Positions 4,791-9,784 of a DNA stretch of 11,471 nt are shown here, piece after piece. Both the position numbers and the translations under genes were made by a program. The stretch comes from Clostridia bacterium. Lineage in GTDB: Bacteria > Bacillota_A > Clostridia > Oscillospirales > Acutalibacteraceae. The stretch lies in the NCBI GenBank assembly GCA_024699005.1, contig JAILQN010000120.1:1-11471 (forward strand), given 5' to 3'. The number at the start of each line of letters is the position of its first letter. Position 1 is the first letter of the stretch. Under the pieces are notes generated by a model. It saw only the letters and a program-made list of their open reading frames with translations. It did not search any database and was not told the DNA's origin.

Positions 4791-4924
4791 AATGCGGAAT
4801 GCGGAATTCGGAATGCGGAATTTTTAAAAGGTTTTGCCTTACTGTATTTGCGTGTAAAGCTGCAAAACAGAAATCTTATTGCCGCAAATAATTCCGCATT
4901 CCGAATTCCGCATTCCGAATTATT
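4791..4924. repeat. Heptamer-armed inverted-repeat element A (mutS2-MATE gap)
   Basis: The left arm 4791-4825 is five 7-base words: AATGCGG, AATGCGG, AATTCGG, AATGCGG and AATTTTT. The right arm 4890-4924 is AATTCCG, CATTCCG, AATTCCG, CATTCCG and AATTATT. Reverse-complemented, the right arm matches the left over about 32 bases with one mismatch. The 64-base core contains a second perfect inverted pair, GTTTTGC (4831-4837) with GCAAAAC (4862-4868). The element occupies most of the 4748-4949 gap between two same-strand genes. No T-run follows on the minus strand, so it is not a standard terminator. Confidence 0.9.
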
Positions 4925-4949
4925 ACATGCTGCTCTGTTTGAAAAATGC

Positions 4950-7403
4950 TTACTTCATTGTGACGATAGTCACTCCGTCCTCACCTTCGCCGTATTTGCC
5001 CAGGCGGAAGGCTTTGACGTGTCTGTGGCCGGACAGCAGCTTTGTGACCGCTTTGCGCAGAGTCCCCGTTCCCTTGCCGTGGATTATCGTGCCCTCGGGC
5101 AGGCCTGCGACGGCGAGGGAGTCCAGGAACTCCTCCACGGCTTCCATGGCTTCCTCGGTGTTCATGCCTCGCAGATCACAGCGCGACGACACGGCGGCGG
5201 TGGCTCTCGACTCGGTTTTGAATACGATATCCGGGTCGGCTCTTTTCGGCGCCGGCGCTTTTACTTTGCGCAGGTCGGCCGCCTTTGCCCTCATCTTGCC
5301 GCTGCCCATTCCGATCTCGACGTAGCCTTTTTTGTCCGGCTCGGTGAGGACGGTCCCGGTCGCTCCGGTAGAACCGAAACGGACGGTGTCGCCCTTATGT
5401 ATTTTTTCCGGCTCTGAGACCTCAGTCGCCGTTCCCGTCAGCGAGGTTGCCGCGGCGTCGTAGGCGGCGTCCAGTCCGCGGCGTATATCGGACTTCGCTT
5501 TCTGAAGAAAGTCCTGATTCGCGTTCTGTTTGCGCAGTTCCTTTTTGATGGAATCGATCTCTGCGAGCAGATCCTGAGACGCTCTTTTCGCGCCTTCCAC
5601 TATCCGTCTCGCTTCCGCGGTGGCGCGGTCTATCTCTTTTTCGCGGATATTATCCAGGTCGTCCAGCTTCGTTTCCGCCTGACGCAGTTTTTCTTCCGCT
5701 TCACGGCGCATCCTCTGTGCGTCGTCGTCGGCCTGTTCCATGGATTTGCGCCTGCGCTCAAGATCGTCCATAACGTCCTCAAAACGGGTGTTCTCGGCTG
5801 ATACGAGTTCTTTTGCGCGGTCGATCACCTCGGGCGCTATGCCCAGCCGCTCGCTTATCGCGAAGGCGTTTGAACGGCCCGGGATCCCGATAAGCAGCCG
5901 GTAGGTCGGACGCAGGGTCTCCACGTCAAATTCGCAGCTGCCGTTCTCCACCCGGGGTGTATCGAGGGCGTAGGCTTTCAGCTCGGCGTAATGAGTCGTG
6001 GCTGCGATGGTCGCGCCCTGAGCGCGCAGCTTTTCCAGGATCGCCATGGCAAGCGCCGCTCCCTCTACAGGGTCCGTACCTGCGCCTAATTCGTCTATAA
6101 GCACAAGGCTGTCGAAATCAGCCTCTTTCAGGATGGACACGATATTGACCATGTGAGCGGAGAAAGTGCTCAGGCTCTGTTCTATGGACTGCTCGTCGCC
6201 GATATCCGCGAATATGTTTTTGTAAACTCTGACCCGGCTGCCGTCTCTCGCCGGGAGCATAAGCCCGCATTCCGCCATAAGGGTCAGAAGACCGAGCGTC
6301 TTGAGCGCGACAGTCTTGCCGCCGGTGTTGGGACCGGTTATCACAAGGGTGTCGTATTCGCCGCCGACGCGTATGTCTATAGGCACCACGGAGGTCTTGT
6401 CAAGCAGCGGGTGGCGCGCTCCTCTGAGGTCGGTCTCGCCTTCATCGCAGAGTTCGGGAAGCCCCGCGCGCATATCGTACGCAAGCTGAGCCTTCGCGAA
6501 AATGACGTCCAGCTCCACGGCGCACTCGTAGCCCGCGTTGAGTTCGTCTTTAAAGGAACCGGCTTCGGCGCAGAGCGCAGAGATGATGCGCTCGATCTCC
6601 TGCTGCTCCTTGCCCTCCAGAACTCTTATCTCGTTATTGGCTTCGACCACAGCCATGGGCTCAATGAACACGGTGGAGCCGCTGGAGGAGGTATCGTGTA
6701 CCAGTCCTCCGAATCTGGAGCGGTACTCCGCTTTCACCGGCACAACGAATCTGCCGTTGCGCTGGGTGATGATCGCGTCCTGAAGCATATCACGGTACGC
6801 TGCGGAATGAACGGTATGTTCCAGTTTTTCGCGGATACCTGCTGATTTCGTCCTTATCTGCCGTCTGATCTCGGCAAGCAGGGGAGAGGCGCCGTCGGCG
6901 ATCTCCTCCTCCGGTGTTATGGCTGTTGTGATCTTATCTTCAAGGTATCGGTTCGGCATAAGCCCGCCGAAGAATAAATCGAGTTCTGAGTTCTGAGTTC
7001 TGAGTTCTGAGTTTTCTGATTCGGAACAGGACGAATCAGAAAACGTGGAACTTGGATCTTGGAACTTGGAACTATGATCCTGATTATCTCTCCACTGCCG
7101 CAGGGACCGGATGACACGGAGGTTCTCCGCGATATTCAGCAGATCGCGCCTGCCGATGATGCCGCCCGCGTCGGCGACAGCCAGAGCGTTGGAGCAGTTT
7201 CGCAGGCCGCCGAAGGAGGGGCTGCCGTATTGGGCGACAAGCCGGAAGGCCTCGTCCGTGCGGGCGAGGCTTATCTTCGCAACGGTCAGGTCTGTCTCCG
7301 GTCCGAGCGAAATGCAAGCCTCCTTCGCGTCTGCGCAGGAGGCGAATGTTGAGAGTATATTCAGGATTTTATCGAGTTCGAGAGATTTGAAGTGTTTATT
7401 CAT
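4950..7403 (-). CDS. mutS2: MutS2: DNA/ribosome quality-control ATPase with Smr nuclease domain
   Basis: The 817-residue protein has the full MutS2 plan: an N-terminal helical core domain; a MutS-type ABC ATPase with Walker A GPNTGGKT (357-364) and Walker B LVLIDELGAGTDP (433-445), with TTHYAEL (469-475) beyond; a long charged coiled coil (about 530-630); a KOW-like beta segment (669-712); and a C-terminal Smr domain (741-817) with DLRG (743-746) and HGKGTGTLR (775-783). Family knowledge: MutS2 is not a mismatch-repair protein. It binds branched DNA or recombination intermediates and, in Bacillus, splits collided ribosomes. The protein is about 30 residues longer than usual. The excess is a low-complexity Ser/Gln/Glu insert at about residues 107-141, encoded by a heptamer repeat element, between conserved helices, with ATPase and Smr motifs intact. 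The start matches the family N-terminus, but no Shine-Dalgarno site precedes it: heptamer element C reaches to within two bases of the ATG. It is codirectional with galK upstream and MATE downstream. Confidence 0.96.
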   Translation of the reverse strand: MNKHFKSLELDKILNILSTFASCADAKEACISLGPETDLTVAKISLARTDEAFRLVAQYGSPSFGGLRNCSNALAVADAGGIIGRRDLLNIAENLRVIRSLRQWRDNQDHSSKFQDPSSTFSDSSCSESENSELRTQNSELDLFFGGLMPNRYLEDKITTAITPEEEIADGASPLLAEIRRQIRTKSAGIREKLEHTVHSAAYRDMLQDAIITQRNGRFVVPVKAEYRSRFGGLVHDTSSSGSTVFIEPMAVVEANNEIRVLEGKEQQEIERIISALCAEAGSFKDELNAGYECAVELDVIFAKAQLAYDMRAGLPELCDEGETDLRGARHPLLDKTSVVPIDIRVGGEYDTLVITGPNTGGKTVALKTLGLLTLMAECGLMLPARDGSRVRVYKNIFADIGDEQSIEQSLSTFSAHMVNIVSILKEADFDSLVLIDELGAGTDPVEGAALAMAILEKLRAQGATIAATTHYAELKAYALDTPRVENGSCEFDVETLRPTYRLLIGIPGRSNAFAISERLGIAPEVIDRAKELVSAENTRFEDVMDDLERRRKSMEQADDDAQRMRREAEEKLRQAETKLDDLDNIREKEIDRATAEARRIVEGAKRASQDLLAEIDSIKKELRKQNANQDFLQKAKSDIRRGLDAAYDAAATSLTGTATEVSEPEKIHKGDTVRFGSTGATGTVLTEPDKKGYVEIGMGSGKMRAKAADLRKVKAPAPKRADPDIVFKTESRATAAVSSRCDLRGMNTEEAMEAVEEFLDSLAVAGLPEGTIIHGKGTGTLRKAVTKLLSGHRHVKAFRLGKYGEGEDGVTIVTMK
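6981..7073. repeat. Heptamer-armed hairpin element B inserted in the mutS2 coding sequence
   Basis: The left arm is four copies of GAGTTCT plus GAGTTTT (6981-7015). The right arm is four 7-base words, TGGAACT, TGGATCT, TGGAACT and TGGAACT (7046-7073). Between them is a perfect 13-bp stem, GTTTTCTGATTCG (7011-7023) with CGAATCAGAAAAC (7032-7044), around an 8-base loop. Reverse-complemented, the right word is AGTTCCA, which resembles AGTTCTG of the left arm (5 of 7), so the arms are diverged inverted copies. The stretch is translated on the minus strand as part of MutS2. About 105 bases (6981-7085), a multiple of three, lack counterpart in normal MutS2. Confidence 0.9.
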
Positions 7404-7405
7404 AT

Positions 7406-7578
7406 GATAAGTAATGTGTAATGAGAAATGTGTAATGTGTAATTGCGACGAACAAAGTCTCAGCCGTTTGCTTTATACCGCCCTGTCAGCATCAGAAAAA
7501 ACCTTCCGGGGCGGAGACAATCCAGCTGTTATACCATCCGGAGCGCAATTGCACATTGCATATTGCACATTGTAAAAC
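7406..7578. repeat. Heptamer-armed inverted-repeat element C filling the galK-mutS2 gap
   Basis: The left arm 7406-7447 reads in 7-base words GATAAGT, AATGTGT, AATGAGA, AATGTGT, AATGTGT and AATTGCG. The right arm 7544-7578 reads CGCAATT, GCACATT, GCATATT, GCACATT and GTAAAAC. Reverse-complemented, the right arm gives AATGTGC words ending in AATTGCG, matching the left arm, with the inner heptamers AATTGCG/CGCAATT perfectly complementary. The 96-base core has its own pairing, CCGCCC (7478-7483) with GGGCGG (7509-7514), reinforced by GTCTC (7457-7461) with GAGAC (7514-7518). The element starts two bases before the mutS2 ATG and ends two bases beyond the galK stop, leaving almost no other spacer. 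Confidence 0.87.
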
Positions 7579-7580
7579 TA

Positions 7581-8876
7581 TTAACAGATTTCCGTTCCTC
7601 CGACCGGGCGTATATTCAGCACGTAGCACGCGTTGTCGCCGAATACGCTCTCGAGGGCGGAGATGTAGCGGTCAAGAAGATCGTCGGGCACGAAAGCCTG
7701 GATAGTACCGGCGAAGCCGCCGCCGTGGACGCGCCACGCGCCGGAGCCGCGCAGAACGCTGTCGGAGATCGCCAGCGCCAGAGCGACGGGCTGGTTCTGC
7801 GGAGCTTTGGCGGAGAATACGTTCTGGTTATACATATACGAGGATTCGCCGCTCTCGGTGATCACCGCTTTGAATGTCCCGAAATCGCCGCGGGAAAGGG
7901 CGTCCGCCGCGCGCTCCACGCGCCTGTTCTCTCCGAAGAAATGGATGCCTCTGAGCACCGGTCTGTCGCCCGCCTGTTCGCGGACCTTCGCCAGGTTTGC
8001 AAAAAACTCGTTTTCGTCCACGTCACGGAGCGCGCTTTTGCCGAATACAGACGCTGTCTTTTCCATTTCGAGCCTGATGGCGGCGTATTCGTCAGTCAGA
8101 TCGGAGTGATCCGCACGCGTGTCGGTGATTACGAGCTTATGAGAGCAGGATGCGAAATCGAACCCGATCGGTGTGATAACGGGCTTTTCGGTGTCTTTAA
8201 AGTCGATCTTTACAAAGCCTCCGACAGAGCACGCCATCTGATCCATAAGACCGCAGGGCTTGCCGAAAAACTCATTCTCGGCGTACTGGGCGATCTGGGC
8301 GATCTCCACTGCGCTGACGCGTCCGTCGTTGTAAAGGTAATTCATGATGGTTGCGATCAGGACCTCGAACGCCGCGGAGCTGGACAGTCCGGAGCCGGAA
8401 ATGACCTGAGTTTTTGTGACGGCGTTGAATCCGCCGACGTTGTAGCCGCGTTTTCTGAAGCCGGCGCATACGCCGCGGATAAGCCCCTGAGACTTGCCGT
8501 TGTCTTCGGGCTGTACGGTCAGGATGCCGGAATCGACTCTGTCGATCTTTGTGTATTCGGCGGACTTGACGGTGACGATGCCGTCGTCCGTTTTCGCCGC
8601 GGCTGCGACCGCATCCAGATTGACTGCCGCAGCCATGACCTTGCCGCGGTTGTGATCTGTGTGGTTGCCGCAGACCTCGGTCCTGCCGGGAGCGGAGAAA
8701 AAGCGGATCTCACCGCCTGCGTCGGGATAAATATCCGCCCAGAGTGAAATAAGCTCATCGTAGCGTTTCTCCTGAATGCCGCACTCGGCGTCGTTTGTAT
8801 AAAGCTCCCTCATTTTGGGCAGAAGCGCTCCGGATTCGAGTTTTTTTCTTGCGTTGATCACTGAATTGTTGTCCAT
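7581..8876 (-). CDS. galK: Galactokinase (Clostridia-type GHMP kinase)
   Basis: The 431-residue GHMP-superfamily kinase phosphorylates galactose to galactose-1-phosphate with ATP, the first step of the Leloir pathway. Visible motifs: the substrate signature PGRTEVCGNHTDH (63-75), the ATP loop GSGLSSSAAF (161-170), the catalytic-base segment CGLMDQ with Asp212 (208-213), and the C-terminal GHMP motif RVHGGGFAG (382-390). The signature has GNHTDH where Escherichia coli GalK has GEHTDY. From memory, Clostridia-type galactokinases (about 430 residues, with a longer N-terminus) share this variant, so it is not a defect. The start at 8876 has a weak AAAGGCGG site about 12 bases upstream. The gene lies 18 bases after the VTT-protein stop, so the two are probably cotranscribed. 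No galT, galE or sugar transporter is in the window. A close relative such as another sugar kinase of the family is less likely. Confidence 0.93.
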   Translation of the reverse strand: MDNNSVINARKKLESGALLPKMRELYTNDAECGIQEKRYDELISLWADIYPDAGGEIRFFSAPGRTEVCGNHTDHNRGKVMAAAVNLDAVAAAAKTDDGIVTVKSAEYTKIDRVDSGILTVQPEDNGKSQGLIRGVCAGFRKRGYNVGGFNAVTKTQVISGSGLSSSAAFEVLIATIMNYLYNDGRVSAVEIAQIAQYAENEFFGKPCGLMDQMACSVGGFVKIDFKDTEKPVITPIGFDFASCSHKLVITDTRADHSDLTDEYAAIRLEMEKTASVFGKSALRDVDENEFFANLAKVREQAGDRPVLRGIHFFGENRRVERAADALSRGDFGTFKAVITESGESSYMYNQNVFSAKAPQNQPVALALAISDSVLRGSGAWRVHGGGFAGTIQAFVPDDLLDRYISALESVFGDNACYVLNIRPVGGTEIC

Positions 8877-8894
8877 AATAATAAATTCCGCCTT

Positions 8895-9692
8895 TCATAT
8901 ACTGCTGTCGGACGTCTGCGCACCCGTCTCTTTGATCGGAGCGACAGAGTCTGTGACGTCTTTTTCTTTTATAAACGTGTCGAATACCCAGCGTATCCCG
9001 AAGAAGGAAGTTCCGGTAAGCAGGAACATGATCATCGTCGGAATGGAAAAGCTGAGCGAGAACGGATTTGAAACGTTGCTGCCGATAACCACGTAAAAAA
9101 GCATCTTCGGCAGGTATCCGGAATAGGATATGAGCATGAACTGCACGAACGGAAAGCCCATGGCTCCGTAAAGCGAGCTGACGTTGCTCAGTGTCATTCC
9201 GGGGACAAGCCGGCATGCCAGCAGCAGCCAGGCGTTGCCCCTGCCGTCCGGACCGGAAACGAAACTCTGTATCCAGACGTTTTTGTTTATAAGCTTGCCA
9301 AGGTTTCCGCCGCCGGACCACACGCCTGTTACATAACGGACTGCGAACAGTATGATCATTCCCGCTGAGTTTATCGCTATCGCGTGCGGCACGTCAAAGA
9401 CCATAGCCGTAGCCATGCTCAGGATGGAGATGGGGTACAGAGGATAGACAGTCTTGATGAAGTACATCAGCAGGATACAGATGACCAGCACCCAGAGGTT
9501 GTTGATAGATGCTATCTTTATCTCCAGATTTGACAGCCAGATCGTATACGCCCTGTACTTCTCTGCGAAAACTCCCACGCGGCAGATAAGAGACCATACT
9601 ATAATAAACACTGCGACGGAATAAGACGCAATGCCGAGTACTTTCAGCAGCTTATCTATGTGCCGCGGATCCGCCGTTTTGAGCCTGGACAT
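8895..9692 (-). CDS. TVP38/TMEM64 (VTT/DedA superfamily) membrane protein
   Basis: The 265-residue integral membrane protein has hydrophobic segments at about residues 18-36, 65-82, 86-122 (two helices), 153-175, 182-204 and 214-234. The family-like re-entrant region includes PLYPISILSMATAMVF (84-99) and the conserved-type ACRLVPGMTLSN (159-170), followed by GYLPKMLFYVVIG (192-204). VTT/DedA proteins act in the cytoplasmic membrane. Some flip phospholipids or undecaprenyl phosphate, but the role of this one is not known. The frame extends upstream to 9860, but I chose the ATG at 9692 because GGAGG (9697-9701) precedes it, because a strong promoter lies inside the longer reading, and because the extra 56 residues are translated repeat sequence. 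It is the first gene of the minus-strand cluster, ending 18 bases before galK. The C-terminal 25 residues are polar. Confidence 0.85.
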   Translation of the reverse strand: MSRLKTADPRHIDKLLKVLGIASYSVAVFIIVWSLICRVGVFAEKYRAYTIWLSNLEIKIASINNLWVLVICILLMYFIKTVYPLYPISILSMATAMVFDVPHAIAINSAGMIILFAVRYVTGVWSGGGNLGKLINKNVWIQSFVSGPDGRGNAWLLLACRLVPGMTLSNVSSLYGAMGFPFVQFMLISYSGYLPKMLFYVVIGSNVSNPFSLSFSIPTMIMFLLTGTSFFGIRWVFDTFIKEKDVTDSVAPIKETGAQTSDSSI

Positions 9693-9696
9693 GTTG

Positions 9697-9701
9697 CCTC
9701 C
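9697..9701 (-). promoter_or_regulatory. Shine-Dalgarno site fixing the VTT gene start
   Basis: GGAGG on the minus strand, 4 bases before the ATG at 9692. It supports this start over in-frame ATGs further upstream. Confidence 0.75.
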
Positions 9702-9722
9702 GTGATTATTGCATACCGAATC

Positions 9723-9751
9723 ATTATAACAAATATAATGCAGGATTGCAA
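9723..9751 (-). promoter_or_regulatory. Strong sigma-A promoter of the VTT-galK-mutS2-MATE cluster
   Basis: On the minus strand, -35 TTGCAA (9746-9751) and perfect -10 TATAAT (9723-9728) are separated by 17 bases. The predicted transcript start near 9716 gives a leader of about 24 bases containing GGAGG. Because the downstream genes are codirectional and close, this promoter may serve all of them. An internal promoter in the repeat-containing gaps was not found but cannot be excluded. Confidence 0.85.
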
Positions 9752-9756
9752 CTACA

Positions 9757-9784
9757 AAGTTTTGAGTGCTGAGTTTCGGGTTTT
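9757..9784. repeat. Degenerate heptamer arm D between the divergent promoters
   Basis: Four 7-base words, AAGTTTT, GAGTGCT, GAGTTTC and GGGTTTT, resemble the GAGTTCT word of element B and keep the 7-base phase. No clear second arm is seen, so this may be a decayed or half element. It separates the leftward VTT promoter from the rightward EamA promoter. Confidence 0.5.

Follow-up and report, generated by a model that had tools for sequence, protein, structure and literature searches.

The DNA considered here is an 11.5-kb window (contig JAILQN010000120.1 of the Clostridia assembly GCA_024699005.1, 11,471 nt at its full length) which encodes a GAPDH (named by eye from the sequence), a MATE transporter, MutS2, a galactokinase and an EamA transporter, and which also carries four loci of tandem heptanucleotide repeats. 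Three of these loci are small foldback elements with inverted arms: element 1 (4791–4921) lies between mutS2 and the MATE gene, element 2 (6982–7073) within mutS2 and element 3 (7413–7571) between the galactokinase gene and mutS2, two of the three being intergenic; the fourth is a solo remnant array (9758–9775). All four had been claimed in a preliminary description of the window and all exist, with slightly shifted coordinates. The host gene mutS2 (minus strand, 4950–7403), recognised from its open reading frame (ORF) and from matches to MutS_V, Smr and MSSS domains, has its closest matches among uncultured Clostridia and Oscillospiraceae, at no more than about 60% identity in a search with one genome per species.

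Read inward, the arms consist of ARTKNNN heptamers in which R and K differ from unit to unit and NNN is near-constant in most arms. Element 1, with the word ARTKCGG, has a 32-bp left arm with five ARTK motifs (plus strand, 4791–4822; AATGCGG AATGCGG AATTCGG AATGCGG AATT), a core (4823–4889) and an inverted 32-bp right arm (minus strand, 4890–4921; AATTCGG AATGCGG AATTCGG AATGCGG AATT). The 32-bp left arm of element 2 (plus strand, 6982–7013) is AGTTCTG repeated four times and followed by AGTT, and its right arm (minus strand, 7046–7073; AGTTCCA AGTTCCA AGATCCA AGTTCCA) carries another word; the core between them (7014–7045) holds a hairpin with a 13-bp stem and a fifth, degenerate right-arm motif (CGTT, minus strand). 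Element 3 begins 9 bp from the mutS2 start codon with a 32-bp left arm that mixes the words TGT and AGA (plus strand, 7413–7444; AATGTGT AATGAGA AATGTGT AATGTGT AATT), and continues through a core to which no gene was assigned (7445–7546) into a 25-bp right arm without a clear fourth unit (minus strand, 7547–7571; AATGTGC AATATGC AATGTGC AATT). The solo remnant (plus strand) retains three motifs (AGTTTTG AGTGCTG AGTT). The arms, earlier put at four to six heptamers, are better described as four heptamers followed by the ARTK of a fifth, exactly 32 bp in all, which is the form of four of the six window arms.

The window contains six period-7 arrays, compared with a mean of 0.04 and a maximum of 2 in 1000 first-order Markov windows, and the reservation that a null model might give equal numbers was not borne out. 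Under a strict test on exact 7-mers, one inverted pair (element 1) was observed and none in the 1000 Markov windows; among periods 4 to 15, more than one array occurred solely at 7 and at its multiple 14. Predicted RNA folding was more stable than that of shuffled sequences for element 1 (z −11.1), element 2 (z −7.3) and element 3 (z −2.6). The further claim that each core has its own inverted repeat held clearly for the 13-bp stem of element 2 and more weakly for element 1, and did not hold for element 3, whose core alone folded no better than shuffles (z −0.26).

Element 2 accounts for a 31-codon in-frame insertion in mutS2 (minus strand, 6981–7073), as seen from comparison with 80 mutS2 relatives, of which 79 have a linker of 11–12 residues at this position and one has 19. 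The window MutS2 linker consists of 6 host residues and 31 from the element, and it would seem that about five linker codons were lost while 31 were gained. Not all six reading frames are open across element 2, but the one used by mutS2 has no stop; the word AGTTCCA of its right arm avoids the TGA that AGTTCTG would place in the mutS2 coding strand.

Arrays of the same geometry are widespread in relatives of the host. In 81 loci (1.38 Mb), period 7 was the most frequent, with 40 arrays, followed by periods 14, 15 and 9 (18, 12 and 11, respectively), while inverted pairs were found five times at period 7, twice at period 14 and at no other period from 4 to 15. A search of both strands of 14 relatives' genomes with an array pattern of three heptamers plus ARTK (one array can yield more than one match) returned 3229 matches, compared with 607 for the reversed pattern used as control, of which two genomes, G007 and G008, supplied 490. 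The pattern was matched in 13 of the 14 genomes (34 to 665 matches each), in 12 of them at least threefold over the genome's own control, so the copies are not confined to this window and the proposal of a genuine family with conserved geometry is upheld. Array length is narrowly distributed: in a set of 146 distinct arrays with consistent words and at least four units plus ARTK, 132 were exactly 32 bp, 10 were 39 bp and 4 were longer; in 352 kb of G007, where shorter arrays were also counted, 54 of 82 were 32 bp, 27 shorter and 1 longer. Polarity is also fixed, since neighbouring arrays 15–300 bp apart (palindromic double calls excluded) were oriented plus–minus in 19 cases, minus–plus in none and on the same strand in 14. 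Nested and side-by-side arrays are common.

Dispersal of single elements was also evident. One element of G007, 198 bp long and with no internal ORF of 60 amino acids, recurs, whole or in part, in at least 14 other places of the same genome, from which it follows that copying does occur, contrary to the earlier view that simple copying could be set aside. A 1.8-kb query containing this element found some match in 19 of 22 genomes of the genus group, partly to its flanking genes. In this search, 15 first-look candidates were scored in most genomes and 232 in G007, and matches on both strands were common, so that matches are not copy numbers. The impression that each locus has different words was a sampling effect, as G007 alone has several recurring word classes; words are not private to loci, a few of them recurring within a genome, and across species they tend to follow lineages of the PF05635 protein introduced below.

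Several loci of the relatives' set showed individual features. Two elements of one contig (L080:2587–2702 and L080:5378–5488) share a terminator-like core hairpin (GCAACCTCCTGC stem) within similar arms. At about 8451–8530 of L033, an element begins within the terminal part of a gene for a GTPase (era-like by eye), whose stop codon uses the first bases of the element, and comparable starts at gene ends were seen by eye at L080:2587 and L003:3428. An AGATGCC array of 114 bp reaches the contig end at L012:9643–9756, and several PF05635 loci likewise lie at contig edges; heptamer elements may therefore break metagenome-assembled genomes (MAGs) during assembly. Two loci (L024 and L025), listed as records of different genomes in a one-per-species set, are identical over 20 kb at 99.99%, which suggests cross-contamination of the MAGs.

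Alignment of one region between two species revealed a small gene inside the arms, which belongs to the family PF05635 (23S_rRNA_IVP; the protein is referred to here as IVP, intervening sequence protein). Of the 14 relatives' genomes, 11 gave PF05635 matches, whereas 14 control genomes gave none; the family is frequent, with matches in 96 of 200 sampled genomes of one clostridial family (92 above the cut-off). When 71 of the 73 matched genes in the 11 genomes were examined (two matches from G011 were left out), 43 were flanked by an inverted repeat above the maximum of 400 random controls; the best internal period of these arms was 7 in 38 of the 43 and 8 in most of the others. A stricter test detected arms at 15 of 30 PF05635 genes, while two random sets of 1500 yielded one case apiece. 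The window word CGG occurs in the arms of two such gene-bearing elements (L160 and, mixed with other words, L179).

The presence of arms follows the protein tree, which comprised 68 of the PF05635 genes (three short genes and two with non-heptameric inverted repeats, L192 and L195, were left out). One clade of 24 rows holds 19 of the 20 arm-less genes, together with three cases at contig edges and two genes with arms, whereas of the other 44 rows 39 have arms, four lie at contig edges and one has none; the arm-less clade was delimited only after the data had been seen. Many proteins of this clade (e.g. L184–L187, L209 and L212), which mostly lack heptamer arms, end in IRRxLI, and L209 carries two of its genes about 1.2 kb apart. 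The clade may represent a domesticated or different form with another role.

Gene-bearing elements were also found in other phyla. With two IVP proteins as queries, 36 and 28 plasmid records were obtained, most of them from Nostoc and other cyanobacteria but some from Bernardetia, Treponema and further hosts, and a search of phages gave 2. From the 66 listed plasmid and phage regions, 16 were chosen to span phyla (Cyanobacteria, Bacteroidota, Spirochaetota, Chloroflexota, Gemmatimonadota and Bacillota), and in 15 of these the PF05635 gene was bracketed by inverted repeats above the control maximum, with an arm period of 7 in 14 regions and 8 in Gemmatirosa. The sole region without arms is a phage scaffold (L267) whose protein by eye resembles the arm-less clade. 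Two Nostoc plasmids have arms of AATTCGC and AATTCGT, each repeated four times and followed by AATT, so that each side carries five motifs; Dolichospermum has five motifs in its right arm, and its left arm continues directly into a second array; counted with the pattern, the arms of Aulosira span 32 to 39 bp, and one arm in Bernardetia reaches 109 bp. The connection with heptanucleotide repeats of cyanobacteria drawn in the preliminary description is thus made concrete, in that IVP genes lie inside heptamer arms on plasmids of Nostoc and other cyanobacteria. On two cyanobacterial plasmids, Anabaena cylindrica pANACY.01 (L259) and Nostoc TCL26-01 plasmid B (L262), a heptamer-armed IVP gene is located between cas2 and cas1 on the opposite strand.

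Arm word and protein lineage are associated. Among 41 gene-bearing armed elements (L192 and L195 again excluded), arm similarity rises with protein identity (Spearman 0.38; none of 500 permutations as high), and pairs with a word similarity of at least 0.6 have a protein identity of about 0.5 or more. The same word accompanies related proteins in different genomes for CAG and CTG (G007 and G009), CAA (G010 and G011) and CGG-like words (G004, G009 and G010). When the words differ they appear to do so in concert: at an orthologous place in two species (L033 and L035) both arms carry another word, and at one orthologous site represented by the joined contigs G069:C9 and G215:C45 the arms are AATTGAA-like and AATTAAA-like, respectively, both arms being altered together. 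The words of one element therefore change together, which fits either reading by a protein or conversion between arms; the data do not separate these.

The predicted structure of a clade A IVP has a mean pLDDT of 97.4 and matches best, among solved structures, 2RLD (BT_0352 of Bacteroides thetaiotaomicron) and 2GSC (XCC0516 of Xanthomonas campestris), of five chains each, and the S23p of Xanthomonas has been described as a homopentamer (PMC4990558). The agreement between five chains and five motifs per arm is no more than suggestive. A weaker match was obtained to the Avd structure 4DWL (TM 0.79, Foldseek E 0.13), and a clade B IVP gave a match to Pfam bAvd that was below the cut-off. Other candidate partners were sought in the 14 relatives' genomes: RVT_1 was absent from 10, including the array-rich G001, G006, G007, G009, G012 and G013, and Y1_Tnp (PF01797) from 7, including the array-rich G001, G002, G006, G009 and G012, although no search for DDE transposases was made. 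A reverse transcriptase or Y1 transposase as partner is inconsistent with this distribution.

Comparable empty sites were available for four insertions in cyanobacterial plasmids, and in all four host DNA had been replaced, elements of about 422, 466, 477 and 494 bp standing where the empty sites have 188, about 330, 36–42 and 13 bp, respectively; one of the four insertions splits a DNA cytosine methyltransferase gene. No period-7 runs were found at eight empty-site sequences. Flanks of 32 complete paired elements (among them one element counted on each strand and one right arm that served in two pairs) showed no excess identity over shuffled pairs for target duplications of 2–9 bp. In the Clostridia data, neither a joined-flank search nor synteny blocks yielded a clean empty site for an ARTK element, the orthologous sites mostly holding another hairpin or an element with a changed word. 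Given the loss of target sequence, template switching or gap-filling by copying would be a better fit than transposition by a cut-and-paste route. In one of the plasmid comparisons, between Nostoc C052 plasmids A and D (L263 and L273), identity is 90% in the left flank and 99.8% in the right, as if the element marked the joint of a recent exchange between two plasmids of one strain.

Taken as a whole, our favoured reading is that the window copies are ORF-less members, comparable to miniature inverted-repeat transposable elements (MITEs), of an IVP-bearing mobile foldback family, and we regard this as probable; that the window elements are relatives of the IVP elements, judged from sequence, is very likely. 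A full member consists of a tandem heptamer array, a PF05635 gene for a four-helix-bundle protein (IVP/S23) and an inverted array. The IVP would recognise the arms, perhaps with one subunit per heptamer, a detail that we hold to be doubtful, and would promote the spread of the element that encodes it, acting in trans on ORF-less copies as well. Insertion may proceed by copying or repair, for instance through template switching, in which host DNA would be swapped out without staggered-end cutting, while slippage and conversion between arms could keep the words of one element alike. The suggestion of a mobile hairpin in the preliminary description is supported. Whether the IVP is the factor that moves the elements we regard as an even question, our confidence having been lowered because the correlation between arrays and PF05635 genes at genome level is unsteady. 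With raw counts of array and PF05635 number this correlation is appreciable (Spearman 0.67, n = 14, p 0.009), and overall it neither establishes nor excludes dependence on IVP.

A number of observations weigh against this reading. The window itself has no PF05635 gene (none was present among its listed ORFs, and its elements, at about 92–159 bp, are too short to encode one), and its assignment to the family rests on architecture and word. After subtraction of the control the above correlation fell to 0.36 (p 0.21), owing to G008, without which it was 0.64 (p 0.02); in G008 itself the array pattern and its control were nearly equal (403 and 380 matches). Arrays occur without a PF05635 hit in 2 of the 14 genomes, G005 (34 matches) and G014 (157 matches), where incompleteness of the MAGs or loss could be the explanation. 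The association of word and protein is loose, with similar words in 43% of 14 pairs above 70% identity and in 9% of 90 pairs at 60–70%, and common descent, without any recognition, could keep word and protein together. The rule of five is not general, because clade B frequently has arms that are longer or have a period of 8, and in clade A, too, some measure 39–109 bp. The IVP has no recognisable nuclease or recombinase, which leaves the strand-transfer step unexplained; replacement of host DNA is known from four loci, all on cyanobacterial plasmids, and later deletion could explain some of the loss. Lastly, the S23p of Coxiella burnetii has been concluded to be probably not made, and its ORF to be in decay (PMC4990558).

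Among the alternatives, the one to which we give most weight, though it is unlikely, is that the elements are classic MITEs mobilised from elsewhere by a DDE or HUH transposase (e.g. of RAYT/IS200 type), the PF05635 gene being a passenger. Small size, inverted ends and many ORF-less copies are what this would predict, and in one genus small hairpins were found just inside the arrays in 31 of 49 cases, compared with 22 of 49 in the outside control, a weak contrast in which many stems share a start offset. However, the lack of target duplication and the replacement at empty sites speak against DDE types, Y1_Tnp is missing from five array-rich genomes, and PF05635 genes lie inside such arms in six phyla. 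Retrotransposition, with the IVP acting like the Avd of diversity-generating retroelements and a reverse transcriptase in trans copying the element RNA, would accommodate the resemblance of the predicted IVP to Avd and the sub-cut-off bAvd match of clade B, but it sits poorly with the 10 genomes in which RVT_1 was not matched, even though MAGs are incomplete and divergent reverse transcriptases could be missed, and we consider it improbable.

Simple slippage, in which slipped-strand mispairing would lengthen and shorten short heptamer runs and the inverted arms would be hairpins or terminators that arose incidentally, is in our view decidedly improbable, and as the main generating process it was rejected on the preferred 32-bp length, the fixed polarity and the empty sites without period-7 runs. 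The heptamer number that differs between Coxiella strains (PMC4990558), the very long arms such as that of Bernardetia and the arrays below 32 bp in G007 are all in keeping with slippage; the strong preference for 32 bp in both array sets, the matching inverted arms around most genes outside the arm-less clade and the dispersed copies of a single element are not. Slippage had been named first among the possible processes, and by itself it gives a poor account of the arrays. That heptamer repeats pre-exist as hotspots into which PF05635 genes and other small elements insert is scarcely credible: nested and side-by-side arrays would be consistent with it, yet the empty sites lack such runs, the arms around the gene are inverted rather than direct, and their words tend to fit the lineage of the enclosed protein.

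The significance of the proposed family lies in joining a functionally uncharacterised protein (PF05635; PMC11270868), annotated as 'four helix bundle protein' or 'S23 ribosomal protein', to the heptamer repeats, which gives the two a testable role as the protein and the matching array of a single mobile element. Reports of heptanucleotide repeats go back decades, and in the papers considered here no mechanism for their spread is offered. The reading predicts a sequence-specific, modular reading of 7-nt words by a ring protein and a mode of insertion that replaces host DNA, including in-frame insertion into genes such as mutS2. It also carries a warning for annotation, as a predicted protein may contain translated arm sequence in the form of peptides like NSELRTQ or NAECGIR, both of which occur in window ORFs. 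A literature search, beyond which lay most subscription journals and preprints, found no work linking heptamer arms to IVP genome-wide.

Eukaryotic foldback (FB) transposable elements have long inverted arms made of short tandem repeats, a short core and few or no genes; the present elements differ from them in that no target duplication was detected, the hosts are unrelated and the full form carries a PF05635 gene. They resemble MITEs and the repetitive extragenic palindromic and bacterial interspersed mosaic elements (REP/BIME) in being small, dispersed, non-coding copies with inverted ends, and differ in the lack of a detected target duplication, the lack of a consistent Y1 transposase and ends of about five tandem motifs. 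PF05635 is reported to resemble Avd (PMC10053308), and the fold is related to that of the Avd of diversity-generating retroelements, but most of the relatives' genomes had no RVT_1 match.

The likeness to published heptanucleotide repeats is closer. For two Xanthomonas species, 186 and 183 dispersed arrays of the GGGAATC type are described, which mostly have four units and include 70–75 convergent inverted pairs, alongside the GGGGA(C/T)T repeats of Nostoc (PMC4692102), and TAACTGA arrays of the Beggiatoaceae are considered possibly horizontally transmitted, with no mechanism evident (PMC4679880); TAACTGA corresponds to AGTTATC on the other strand, which would fit ARTKNNN. The arrays described here, like the short tandemly repeated repetitive (STRR) sequences and other heptanucleotide repeats, are tandem, of period 7 and dispersed, the mostly intergenic location that also defines STRRs being known for the window elements (two of three), and the IVP arms of Nostoc relatives are heptamer repeats of such a kind. 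They differ in that the papers describe the repeats alone, without the protein: the available text of PMC4679880 makes no mention of S23, four helix, 23S rRNA or intervening, and that of PMC4692102 none of S23.

Among known systems, the intervening sequence (IVS) of 23S rRNA genes offers the nearest parallel. The IVS of Coxiella burnetii is a 428-nt selfish 23S rRNA element with an S23p ORF, a 28-bp terminal stem and processing by RNase III, tandem heptamers precede its ORF in a number that varies by strain, and an earlier proposal that the ORF had a past role in mobility is reported (PMC4990558); a study of rRNA insertions in the candidate phyla radiation (CPR) found IVP in insertions of both 16S and 23S genes. 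The shared features are a terminal inverted stem of similar size and fold-back ends, PF05635 in the loop of the gene-bearing relatives and, in Coxiella, the heptamers; the window elements likewise carry terminal inverted repeats that form a stem in the predicted folds. The differences are that the window copies lie in or beside mutS2 rather than in a 23S rRNA gene and have no S23 gene, and that related copies are dispersed, often without a gene, with words varying by protein lineage. It is possible, and we propose it tentatively, that all of these belong to one distinct prokaryotic mobile class with a pentameric, nuclease-less four-helix bundle as its sole protein, five recognition motifs per arm (one for each subunit), co-evolution of word and protein and insertion by replacement, of which cyanobacterial STRRs, the Xanthomonas and Beggiatoaceae repeats and the 23S IVS would be different faces. 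The window copies fall outside strict definitions of an IVS and of a DDE-moved MITE, yet in the way they work they come closest to an IVS released into the genome at large.

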